From the NCBI GenBank assembly GCA_021789495.1, contig JAJYJM010000019.1:1-36268 (forward strand): a stretch of 36,268 bases of DNA. Reading direction: 5' to 3'. The DNA comes from Nitrospirota bacterium (GTDB lineage: Bacteria > Nitrospirota > JACRHJ01). A program made the position numbers and the translations under genes. Under the pieces are notes generated by a model that saw only the letters and a list, made by a program, of their open reading frames with translations, had not been told where the DNA came from and did not search any database. How positions within the stretch are numbered: position 1 is the stretch's first letter; every line of letters starts with the position of its first letter. This document shows, piece after piece, positions 29,396 through 32,526 of this stretch.

Positions 29396-30868
29396 TTAGA
29401 ACTTTATCTGCAAGAGCGTCGTGAAGAGGTTATGGCTTTTTAAGTCTATCTTCTCCAGCGAGTCCTTCGCCAGGCCGCTCTCCGCGTGGATGATCTCCCA
29501 GTCCGCCATTACCCTTACGTAGCTGTTCAGGTAATAGTTGGCGCCGAACGTCCACCTGTCCCTGTCGTTTGCGACACCGCTCGTGTTCTCGTCGAGGAAA
29601 TCGTAGCGGACGACAGGCTCAAAGTTGTTCAAGAAGCTCGCCGGGCCGCTTATGCCGTTAACCCTGTACCAGGCTTCGAGATAATATCCGAAGGTATGGG
29701 CGTATTTCTCGAAGGGAGTAGCCGTATTGGATACGTAGGTGTCGTAATATCTCCTCTCCCACTCGAACTCGCCCATCGTCCTTAGGCCCTTGACCATCGA
29801 CGGGGCGTACTCGAAGTCCGCGCCCCATTTTTCATGGTCGCGGTGCCGGTCCACGACGGGCTTGGTGTTGCTCGTGGCGCCCGCATACCAGGAGCCGCCC
29901 AGCGTAAGGCCCTCGACAAAGGGATTTATCCACACGCGGCCCGCCCAGTCTTTCTGGTTGTTGTCGTCCACGTTATTCTTGCCGTTGCCGTTGACAAGCT
30001 CGGTCGCATAGCCGACTCCGAACGGCCTGCCCTTCGTGCGGTACGCGCCGGAGAGCATGACGCCCACGTCCCGGAGCTGCGGGTTGACAATCATGTTCGT
30101 AACAAGCGAGCGGTTGATCGTCGGGATGGCCCCGATGGACATTAACTGATCTACCGAGAACGGGGTCTTGAACTGGCCCAGCGTTACCCTCGTGTAGGGG
30201 ATGTAATCGAGATAGGCGTACGCGTCGGAAAGAAGCGGGTTGGTGGTGCCGTCCATGGAGATCATGAAACCTATCTTTTTGAATATCTTGCCGCCGAAGA
30301 AAAGCTTGGCGCGCCTTACAAAGAAGGTGTTGTCGGCGGTATCGGATATCTGGCCCGTCGGGGGGCTGCCGACCGATATGCCGGAGTCGTCGTAGAGCCA
30401 GCCCGCCTGGAGGAGCGCGCCTATCTTGAGCTTTACCCTGTCCCCGGTAAGCCGGGCGAAGCCGTCCTCGAAGTCCGTCAGCGCGCCGTTCGCCGGTCGA
30501 CCGGCTTCGGACGCGGTTGCCGCGACAGGGGCCGTTTTCGAGGCTACCGGGGCAGGCGCGGGCGTTGGAGAGGGTGCGGCCTCCCGCGATATTCGCTCGT
30601 AATCTTTTTCGCTGATTACACCTTTTTTCTTAAGGACATCGAGCAACCCAAGCGTGCCGGCTGCCGGCGCGGGGGATGCCGCTTCGTTTTTCTTAAGGTT
30701 GTCATAGGCTTGCTGGTCGAGCACGCCCTTTGCCTTGAGCACGTCCAGAAGGTCGTTGTAGGCCGAGGCCGGGCTCCCGGTCCCCGATACCGGCCCGCCG
30801 GCCAGGGCAATGCCCGCGGACAGAAATACAGTTATGAACAAAGACATCAAGACCGCCGTAAACTTCAT
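29396..30868 (-). CDS. Phosphate-selective porin O/P-family outer-membrane channel with N-terminal helical repeats
   Basis: A 490-residue porin-like protein. The signal is MKFTAVLMSLFITVFLSAGIALA (1-23). Two near-identical helical hairpins follow, LLDVLKAKGVLDQQAYDNL (40-58) and LLDVLKKKGVISEKDYERI (75-93), resembling SHOCT-like units. After an Ala/Pro linker carrying the palindromic repeat (EAGRPA, about 121-126) comes the OprO/OprP-type barrel: VRRAKLFFGGKIFKKIGFMISMDGT, YLDYIPYTRVTLGQFKTPFSVDQL, then many beta strands ending in LQIKF with terminal Phe. The ATG at 30868 has GGAGG eight bases upstream. The Moco-like leader suggests an oxyanion such as molybdate or tungstate as substrate (inference). 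Confidence 0.88.
   Translation of the reverse strand: MKFTAVLMSLFITVFLSAGIALAGGPVSGTGSPASAYNDLLDVLKAKGVLDQQAYDNLKKNEAASPAPAAGTLGLLDVLKKKGVISEKDYERISREAAPSPTPAPAPVASKTAPVAATASEAGRPANGALTDFEDGFARLTGDRVKLKIGALLQAGWLYDDSGISVGSPPTGQISDTADNTFFVRRAKLFFGGKIFKKIGFMISMDGTTNPLLSDAYAYLDYIPYTRVTLGQFKTPFSVDQLMSIGAIPTINRSLVTNMIVNPQLRDVGVMLSGAYRTKGRPFGVGYATELVNGNGKNNVDDNNQKDWAGRVWINPFVEGLTLGGSWYAGATSNTKPVVDRHRDHEKWGADFEYAPSMVKGLRTMGEFEWERRYYDTYVSNTATPFEKYAHTFGYYLEAWYRVNGISGPASFLNNFEPVVRYDFLDENTSGVANDRDRWTFGANYYLNSYVRVMADWEIIHAESGLAKDSLEKIDLKSHNLFTTLLQIKF
30492..30510 (-). repeat. Coding palindromic repeat, copy in the porin linker
   Basis: Sense strand CCGAAGCCGGTCGACCGGC, read as S-E-A-G-R-P-A in the linker between the helical hairpins and the barrel. 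Confidence 0.85.
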
Positions 30869-30907
30869 AATGCCGTTCCTCCCTTCAAACCGCCTGATTT
30901 TACGTAT

Positions 30908-30944
30908 TAATAAAAAAGGCGCCTTCTGAATACAGAGGTGCCTT
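30908..30944 (-). terminator. Intrinsic terminator in the porin leader (riboswitch expression platform)
   Basis: Minus strand AAGGC-A-CCT-CTG, loop TATT, CAG-(A)-AGG-C-GCCTT, followed by TTTTTTATT. It lies between the structured leader and the porin ribosome site (about 40 bases before the ATG), so it would attenuate the porin rather than end an upstream gene. An upstream GCCTT (near 31051-31055) could pair with its AAGGC arm as an antiterminator. Confidence 0.8.
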
Positions 30945-30957
30945 GCCGCCTTAAAGC

Positions 30958-31079
30958 CCCTCCTTTCCAAGCCGGCCACAAGACCGGCTCATACGGGAGG
31001 CCGCATCCTTTCGGGTGCGACCCTGTCGGCCTGATACCCCTGGCCCGTGCGTAAGGCTGTAGGTTATCCGGCTCGGAGT
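30958..31079 (-). promoter_or_regulatory. Structured leader resembling the Moco (molybdenum cofactor) riboswitch
   Basis: Minus strand, about 120 bases, starting ACTCCGAGCCGG. A CAGGG (31025-31021) leads into a hairpin CGCA-CC-C/GAAA/GG-A-TGCG, then GGCCTCCCGTAT (31002-30991), a GAGCCGG...CCGGCTT hairpin and TGGAAAGGAG (30969-30960). The arrangement CAGGG-hairpin-CCTCCCGTAT-...-TGGAAAGG matches what I remember of the E. coli moaA leader (Moco RNA, Rfam RF01055). I could not run a covariance search. The 3' hairpin AGCCGGTC...GGCCGGCT (30971-30990) resembles the coding palindromic repeat of this genome. It is followed by an intrinsic terminator, so control is probably transcriptional and negative. 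Confidence 0.6.
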
Positions 31080-31097
31080 TTATTAAATTTTCCGACG

Positions 31098-31126
31098 AGT
31101 ATAAAAAAACCCGCTATAACTGTCAA
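31098..31126 (-). promoter_or_regulatory. Consensus sigma70 promoter of the porin
   Basis: Minus strand TTGACA (31126-31121), exactly 17 bases, TATACT (31103-31098). Predicted start near 31091, giving a leader of about 220 bases before the porin ATG. The 160 bases beyond it, up to tatC, hold no gene I can support. Confidence 0.85.
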
Positions 31127-31264
31127 GATAAATTCAGAAATAGCAACATGCGTGCCAAGAGCACAAAATTGCGCGGATGCTCTACGGACAAGGCTTTAGC
31201 GGCAACGACATCTTATGCGCATCGAACCGGGGCGGGACTATTTTGTCATGGCGCGAACGGAAAT

Positions 31265-31288
31265 GTCCGGGCTCGGGAAGCCCCGGAC
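31265..31288 (-). terminator. Probable terminator hairpin after tatC
   Basis: GTCCGGG(G)CT pairs with AGCCCGGAC around a TCCCG loop, one base after the tatC stop. The following ATTTCCG is a poor T-tract, so the call is moderate. Confidence 0.45.
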
Positions 31289-31289
31289 C

Positions 31290-32096
31290 TTACTCGCTTG
31301 CCCTTTCGGACTCCTCGGCCTTTTCCTTGCGCCGTCCGGTAATCCTCGCCATTATTATGCCCACCTCATACAGCAGTATCATGGGCGCGGCCATGAGGGT
31401 CTGGTTGAACATGTCCGGAGTCGGGGTAAGTATGGCGGCGGCGATGAATGCGGCGAGCACGGCGTATTTGCGGTTTTTGGCAAGGAACTTCGGCGTGACA
31501 AGCCCCAGGCGCGAAAGGACGGTTATGATAACAGGGAGCTCGAAGACCAGCCCGAATGAGAGCATGAACTTCCCGCAGAAATCCACATATTTCTCGATGG
31601 AGATCATCGGCGTGACTTCGCTTATCCCCCATGTCAGAAGAAAGCGCATCGCGAACGGAAGGACTATATACTGGCAGAAGAGCGCGCCCAGGACGAACAT
31701 GACCGTCGCGGAGACAACGAACGGCAGGGCCCATCTGCGCTCCTTCGGCAGAAGCCCCGGAGATATGAACAGCCACACCTGGACAAGTATGAAGGGCAGC
31801 GTAACGAATATGCTCGCTATGAAGGCTATCTTGAACGCCATCCACAGCACCTCGCCCGGAGCGACGGCTATGAGCTTCGTGGGGCTCGGCAGATATGTCG
31901 GGACGACGAACGGCCAGGCGGTCTTCGTCTTCAGCACCAGGGTGAGAGGTATCTTCATCCACCGGAGCAGATACTCCCAGTACTGGAAACACGCGATAAA
32001 GGCGACGAACAGCACGATGACGACATATAAAAGCCGCCTCCGGAGCTCCTCCAGGTGCGCGAGTATCGACATCATCTTCCCGGGTTTTTCAGGCAT
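31290..32096 (-). CDS. tatC: Sec-independent protein translocase TatC
   Basis: TatC is the six-helix membrane receptor for twin-arginine signal peptides. The 268-residue protein starts MPEKPGKMMSILAHLEELRRRLL, with the family LAHLEELRxRL cytoplasmic motif. Next come PSPTKLIAVAPGEVLWMAFKIA (the conserved periplasmic P-x-E segment), LLPKERRWALPF, SIEKYVDFCGKFMLSFGLVFELPVI and ILTPTPDMFNQTLMAAPMILLYEVGI. The frame is open farther upstream, but that part is tatB in another frame. The ATG at 32096 overlaps the tatB stop by 8 bases. A MetMet at residues 8-9 is an alternative start. Confidence 0.96.
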   Translation of the reverse strand: MPEKPGKMMSILAHLEELRRRLLYVVIVLFVAFIACFQYWEYLLRWMKIPLTLVLKTKTAWPFVVPTYLPSPTKLIAVAPGEVLWMAFKIAFIASIFVTLPFILVQVWLFISPGLLPKERRWALPFVVSATVMFVLGALFCQYIVLPFAMRFLLTWGISEVTPMISIEKYVDFCGKFMLSFGLVFELPVIITVLSRLGLVTPKFLAKNRKYAVLAAFIAAAILTPTPDMFNQTLMAAPMILLYEVGIIMARITGRRKEKAEESERASE

Positions 32097-32526
32097 CGGT
32101 CTTCTTCTGGGGCGCCGGTTGACCGGCTTCGGAGGGGGCCGGTTGACCGGCTTCGGACGGGGCTGTCGTGGCCTTGCTTTCTGCGCCGCCTCCGGGGAAA
32201 CTCGCCTTATTTCTCTGAGCCTGTCCGGGCGGGCTGACCGGCTCCTGGTCGGCAAGCTTCGCGTAATCCTCTTCCGTCTCTATGGTATTCTGGACGGGCG
32301 ATGGCGAAGACGCATTGAAATCCACCTGCCTTAAGAGGTCTTCCTTTATTCTCTCGGCGCCGACCTCGGTCTCTATCTGGTTTTTGAATTCGTTCATGGA
32401 CCTCTTGAACTCGTTCATTGCCCTGCCGAGGGATTTTGCCAGTTCCGGCAGCCTTTTCGGCCCGAAAACCAAGAGCGCGACAATAAAAATCAGCAGAAAT
32501 TCGCTTGAATAGCCAAACCCGGGCAT
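32089..32526 (-). CDS. tatB: Sec-independent translocase TatA/TatB-family protein
   Basis: A 145-residue single-span Tat component. N-terminal helix SSEFLLIFIVALLVFGPKRLPELAKSLGRAMNEFKRSMNEF: a Glu near residue 9 and the GPKRLPE hinge favour TatB, while the FG dipeptide is shared with TatA. An amphipathic helix to about residue 70 is followed by a disordered Ser/Pro/Gln tail. The tail ends in two tandem SEAGQPAP units made by two copies of the palindromic repeat. It precedes and overlaps tatC. A promoter and a GGAG ribosome site lie upstream. The TatA versus TatB assignment is not certain. Confidence 0.9.
   Translation of the reverse strand: MPGFGYSSEFLLIFIVALLVFGPKRLPELAKSLGRAMNEFKRSMNEFKNQIETEVGAERIKEDLLRQVDFNASSPSPVQNTIETEEDYAKLADQEPVSPPGQAQRNKASFPGGGAESKATTAPSEAGQPAPSEAGQPAPQKKTDA
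32114..32157 (-). repeat. Two tandem coding palindromic repeats in the tatB tail
   Basis: Two 24-base units spaced exactly one unit apart, each with the sense core TCCGAAGCCGGTCAACCGGC (32133-32114 and 32157-32138). Each is read as S-E-A-G-Q-P-A-P. The identical centre (CA) suggests local duplication of one copy. Confidence 0.9.

Follow-up and report, generated by a model that had tools for sequence, protein, structure and literature searches.

The route by which molybdate and tungstate, present at nanomolar levels, pass the outer membrane has, to our knowledge, hardly been asked about, and passage through general porins is usually assumed. The window analyzed here, a stretch of 36,268 nucleotides from the genome of an uncultured Nitrospirota bacterium, carries a porin gene whose leader resembles a Moco riboswitch, and this raises the question of why an RNA of that kind would stand in front of an outer-membrane channel. 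We consider it probable that a P3-less Moco/Tuco riboswitch controls this OprO/OprP-type porin by termination, and that the porin in turn passes molybdate or tungstate to the ModABC importer. The features on which this reading is built are the following.

31290 to 32255, minus strand: tatC, end gene of the upstream unit and a neighbor outside the switch (PF00902, 224.7 bits)
31098 to 31126, minus strand: sigma-70-type promoter TTGACA-17-TATACT of the porin transcription unit (sequence and promoter scan)
30944 to 31090, minus strand: Moco/Tuco riboswitch aptamer, P3-less type (RF01055, 58.9 bits, full length)
30969 to 30990, minus strand: aptamer insert hairpin GAGCCGGUCUUGUGGCCGGCUU (22-base insert in the cmscan alignment, and folding)
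30953 to 30963, minus strand: extended P1 3' strand GGAGGGGCUUU, 5' half of the predicted antiterminator (partition function)
30934 to 30944, minus strand: AAGGCACCUCU, predicted antiterminator 3' half and terminator 5' arm (partition function and folding)
30912 to 30944, minus strand: intrinsic terminator hairpin and T-tract, expression platform (folding)
30878 to 30885, minus strand: ribosome-binding site AAGGGAGG of the porin (sequence, ATG 9 nt downstream)
29396 to 30868, minus strand: Porin_O_P outer-membrane porin, 490 amino acids, with signal peptide and C-terminal Phe (PF07396 and structure model)

A P3-less Moco/Tuco riboswitch and its predicted switching

Upstream of the porin leader lie tatA/B-type genes and tatC. 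The order that had been predicted for the leader, with a promoter, a structured RNA, a terminator with T-tract and only then the ribosome-binding site, is borne out by the minus-strand coordinates: promoter at 31126-31098, RF01055 match at 31090-30944, terminator at 30944-30912, AAGGGAGG at 30885-30878 and the ATG at 30868. The promoter, which had been described as perfectly spaced, has its TTGACA box at 31126-31121 and its TATACT box at 31103-31098, with a spacer of 17 and 11 of 12 consensus matches, and it is the only promoter-like site that the scan returned in 30800-31300.

The RNA is a genuine RF01055 (Moco/Tuco) class riboswitch of the P3-less type. The covariance test against RF01055, set beforehand, gave 58.9 bits against a gathering score of 36, with the model complete from 1 to 135 and an E value of 8e-12 for the window, and RF01055 was the only Rfam match above gathering across the 36-kb window. 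Besides the full-length covariance match, the RNA has the conserved junction, the GAAA tetraloop and the terminator platform of the class. In the cmscan alignment the GNRA tetraloop on P4 is GAAA at 31012-31009, and the P2 receptor columns hold CCUACAG/GGCCAGGGG, which departs from the consensus CCUAAG/UAUGG. The original prediction had likened the leader to the Escherichia coli moaA element, and the motif order CAGGG-hairpin-CCTCCCGTAT-insert-TTGGAAAGGAG is indeed present; the likeness does not extend to the P3 stem, whose columns are deleted in the window RNA and filled in the E. coli moaA control (103.6 bits), and the window RNA has an extra hairpin in its 22-base insert. At the position of this hairpin, the aligned modA leaders of two congeneric genomes (G003 and G004) hold other hairpins of different sequence. 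The junction CCGAYAGGG, or near variants of it, is common to the other Nitrospirota copies examined and leaves no space for P3.

P3 is missing in 58 of 176 Moco RNAs, found in hosts with tungsten-cofactor genes, for which Tuco sensing has been proposed (Regulski et al. 2008, PMC2408646), and the window RNA shares its P3-less subtype with these 58. The putative ligand is Moco or Tuco, with Tuco favored because the P3 stem is missing; the step from P3 absence to Tuco rests on that published correlation, and hence we name the ligand Moco/Tuco. Three divergent Moco RNAs of family f3 (L015, L016 and L017, with 40, 32 and 28 bits, two of them under gathering) combine the core GATTCGGGTTGGGAAGGAAACG with a hairpin inserted ahead of GGAAAGGAG, lie upstream of modA or moeA, and possibly represent a distinct subtype.

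The intrinsic terminator with T-tract that had been expected after the RNA was found as the hairpin 30944-30918 (about -14 kcal/mol when folded alone), followed by an uninterrupted T-tract; since its stem is not continuous, a simple scan for terminators did not pick it up. In a partition function computed on a transcript ending before the terminator 3' arm, GGAGGGGCUUU (30963-30953) pairs with AAGGCACCUCU (30944-30934) with a probability of 0.56-0.84. The GGAG within GGAGGGGCUUU doubles as the 3' half of aptamer P1, where its partner is CUCC. Alignment shows AAGGCACCUCU to be identical in the G003 and G004 modA leaders, in which the same antiterminator is predicted; an equivalent one is predicted in the tupA leader of a sister genus (G005), and folding predicted no such antiterminator for the fdhA leaders.

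P1 with the terminator and the antiterminator are predicted to be mutually exclusive, which would constitute an expression platform tied to P1. Because GGAGGGGCUUU and AAGGCACCUCU each take part in two helices, the leader would act as an OFF switch, in which the presence of cofactor turns the porin off. When cofactor is scarce, GGAGGGGCUUU would pair with AAGGCACCUCU, the terminator would be blocked and the porin would be made. When cofactor is plentiful, ligand would lock P1 (CUCC/GGAG), AAGGCACCUCU would enter the terminator and transcription would halt before the porin. Control of the porin would be exerted by premature transcription termination, in the direction that these modeled helices suggest, and the predicted folding of the leader is consistent with the proposed shut-off by ligand.

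The porin, and relatives of it beside molybdate and tungstate importers

The downstream gene had been taken for an OprO/P-type porin, and both sequence and modeled structure agree. PF07396 matches at 61.1 bits (cut-off 20.9), an AlphaFold2 model from 31 sequences has 16 strands and a pLDDT of 77.7 (an earlier model from 7 sequences, with a pLDDT of 49, was discarded in its favor), and the top solved structures in Foldseek are OprP 2o4v (E 2.9e-16) and OprO 4rjw. The window porin thus shares the PF07396 family and the 16-stranded barrel with the phosphate and polyphosphate porins OprP and OprO, which are its best fold matches. It differs from them in sequence (14-17% identity), in its N-terminal repeat helices (two repeats of the LLDVLKxKGV type), in its apparent control by RNA and in belonging to a branch linked to tup/mod and not to pst. 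The porin profile had no meaningful match among PDB sequences, and tblastn of the porin against plasmids gave no match. The selenite/tellurite porin ExtI of Geobacter, which is likewise porin-like and has been implicated in oxyanion entry (PMC5877670), shows weak profile similarity; at 18.5 bits against the NF040900 cut-off of 150 the window porin is not a member of that family. Gmet_1042 was dropped as a candidate porin orthologue beside Moco genes; one paper gives it as moeB and another as a porin orthologue.

The link between this porin and molybdenum or tungsten is backed independently of the riboswitch by porin-tupABC and porin-modABC clusters. In the sister genus genome G005, the gene order is tatC, a porin 45% identical to that of the window, 24 nt, a Moco RNA with terminator, tupA, tupB and tupC. 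Since there is no promoter-like site between the G005 porin and the Moco RNA, the porin and the tungstate importer are probably co-transcribed with the switch in between. A second Porin_O_P copy in G005 (L054, C24/L039) lies downstream of unrelated sequence, with a solute symporter and an acetyl-CoA synthetase-like gene close by, and neither mod/tup genes nor a Moco RNA were found near it. The best porins outside the family by the own-family profile, those of G020 (129 bits) and G042 (125 bits), both precede modA-modB-modC; in further lineages a porin stands before modABC (G013) or tupA is followed by a porin (G058). The G020, G042 and G058 loci have no Moco RNA. Porin_O_P genes adjacent to mod or tup occur in at least four Nitrospirota lineages.

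A wider porin profile (A2) was run over 396 Nitrospirota genomes, and its top loci outside the own family had modA downstream on the same strand in 24 of 24 cases, mostly with a gap of ~12 nt; because A2 included four mod/tup-adjacent non-family members, this figure describes a conserved arrangement and not an unbiased frequency. The sampled porin-adjacent ModA proteins (five of five) scored 206-225 bits against the TIGR01256 cut-off of 62.5; the TupA identifications have strong scores, yet fall under the NCBIfam curated cut-off. For the 30 generic PF07396 hits that scored highest across the phylum, no mod/tup neighbor was found within 1.5 kb. In 24 Nitrospirota genomes from several genera (L111-L134), Porin_O_P is encoded directly upstream of modA, usually by ~12 nt, and is by itself a candidate for a molybdate porin.

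Other Porin_O_P branches (L103, L104 and L108, and L106 and L100) adjoin sulfate or phosphate ABC importers; for the neighbor of the Nitrospira porin L103, identification as a phosphate importer was rejected, the profiles showing a sulfate-binding protein. This neighborhood pattern suggests that these Porin_O_P proteins pair generally with oxyanion importers. In the tree, the pst- or sulfate-adjacent porins stand apart from the window branch, which holds tup- and mod-adjacent porins. The importer pairings and the tree together make the Porin_O_P proteins of the Nitrospirota look like the outer-membrane counterparts of oxyanion importers, and place the window branch on the molybdate/tungstate side.

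Gain and loss of the cassette within the genus, and competing readings

A like leader elsewhere in the window genome (G000) was found once, before fdhA; the original prediction had proposed looking for one before modABC or moa genes. This further Moco RNA (49.7 bits) is followed on the same strand by fdhA, two further genes, fdhD, moeA, modB, modA and modC; the RNA heading this run (C53:25415-37480; L050, L055) is likewise P3-less, and the modA in it is without a switch of the G003/G004 type. The window aptamer is 96% identical to the G004 modA leader, 92% to the G003 modA leader and 84% to its own fdhA leader. In G003 and G004 the leader is placed between modB and modA and the terminator is near-identical too. 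The promoter of the window leader matches the G004 porin promoter, and therefore the modA-like part is the aptamer-terminator block only.

The cassette census covers 30868-31126 of the window plus the modA and porin leaders L021-L024, L047, L048 and L055-L057. Not one of the four congeneric porin orthologues (G001-G004), which are 83-90% identical to the window porin, has an intact aptamer, and the modA leaders of G000, G001 and G002 have none; with the porin and modA sites counted together, each of five congeners has the cassette at one site or none, never at both. The intact porin-riboswitch arrangement comes from one genome, and all of the genomes are MAGs. Since four congeners have no aptamer at the porin, its control appears to be labile and not essential to the role of the porin. 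Collapse of near-identical leaders in assembly is an unlikely cause of the missing aptamers: the empty sites hold a diverged, not copied, terminator, and that of G002 lies within a 129-kb contig at 32x coverage.

Terminator relics homologous to the switch terminator precede the porin in G003, G001 and G002 (local scores of 65, 46 and 41). The next-highest score among 4180 windows was 32, and it belongs to a modA leader. Of 2000 random hairpin terminators given an identical tail, none scored as high as the relics, and no dispersed copies of the terminator sequence rose above control level in the five genomes. The G004 porin leader has kept the promoter and has no terminator; in aptamer-less congener leaders the terminator has decayed. 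The porin tree in the genus is (((G000,G002),G004),G001),G003. The simplest reading would be that the porin leader of the ancestor already had the cassette and that several losses followed; alternatively, G000 may have regained it from a modA-type copy.

The losses at the porin in G001-G004 and at modA in G000-G002 lend some weight to the idea that the window leader is itself a decaying relic, its aptamer and terminator past switching as in the congeners after loss. We think this very unlikely, because the window leader still has an intact promoter, conserved core, GAAA loop and antiterminator and a T-tract without interruption, the porin switch scores higher than the fdhA switch of the same genome (58.9 over 49.7), and in the congeners the terminator decays once the aptamer is lost. 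Hardly credible is the idea that the aptamer match is incidental and that the terminator serves tatABC or is of a generic, dispersed kind. A terminator does stand directly after the tatC stop in G001-G003, but the window terminator is separated from tatC by a promoter and a complete aptamer, and its sequence is common to the modA leaders and otherwise at control level in five genomes. Both forms of this explanation were rejected on the relic homology scores and the lack of a dispersed element.

It is also conceivable, if unlikely, that the switch works and that the porin is a general one, or one for phosphate or sulfate, tied to cofactor status for some other reason, for example by serving the kind of metabolism in which the Mo/W formate dehydrogenase operates. 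Such a role would fit the wider phylum, in which Porin_O_P genes adjoin pst and sulfate importers, and the four congeners whose orthologue has no switch. The pst- and sulfate-adjacent porins are on other branches, however, the window branch being tup- and mod-adjacent, and modA uses the same cassette.

Because the switch precedes the porin and relatives of the porin adjoin molybdate/tungstate importers, we see the porin as the probable regulated entry. Molybdate or tungstate would cross the outer membrane through it to the ModABC importer, and outer-membrane entry would then lie in one feedback loop with the inner-membrane importer and formate dehydrogenase. The original prediction of a switch-controlled molybdate/tungstate porin, off when cofactor is plentiful, finds support in the mutually exclusive helices predicted for the leader and in the porin-tupABC and porin-modABC clusters, from which we infer sensing and transport. 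That the porin is a channel dedicated to tungstate or molybdate, accompanying modABC/tupABC across the Nitrospirota and here placed under a P3-less switch by a cassette common to modA, we would put at slightly better than even.

Precedents and implications

The listed targets of Moco RNAs are cofactor synthesis, molybdate/tungstate importers and Mo/W enzymes, and the word "porin" is absent (Regulski et al. 2008, PMC2408646). The original prediction had named synthesis, importers and molybdoenzymes as the known targets, in agreement with this list; the window switch precedes an outer-membrane porin, a target type outside it. Searches for a Moco riboswitch with a porin, and for molybdate with a porin, returned no such case in the openly licensed literature, so that the RNA class is known and the porin as its target is new in the literature of that kind searched. 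The nearest regulatory precedents are the FUR-regulated Geobacter porin and the B12-switch BtuB. Psp is a PF07396-like porin with FUR boxes in Geobacter and Desulfuromonas (Rodionov et al. 2004, PMC545781), and like the window porin it is a PF07396-type protein placed in metal homeostasis by its control region; Psp has a protein repressor and iron, whereas the window porin would have an RNA and Mo/W. A B12 riboswitch upstream of btuB-type outer-membrane transporters (PMC5317091) similarly joins a riboswitch to an outer-membrane uptake protein for the nutrient or cofactor served. BtuB is a TonB-dependent receptor for cobalamin, whereas the window protein would be a passive porin for Mo/W.

A porin family that accompanies modABC/tupABC and has a member placed under a cofactor riboswitch offers a concrete gene to test, including in the Nitrospirota porin-modA operons. 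With the cassette gained or lost within one genus of five congeners, its regulatory value is testable by comparison. With the window locus, the targets of the Moco/Tuco class would come to include an outer-membrane channel, and if our reading is true, the finished cofactor would set the permeability of the outer membrane for a trace oxyanion.
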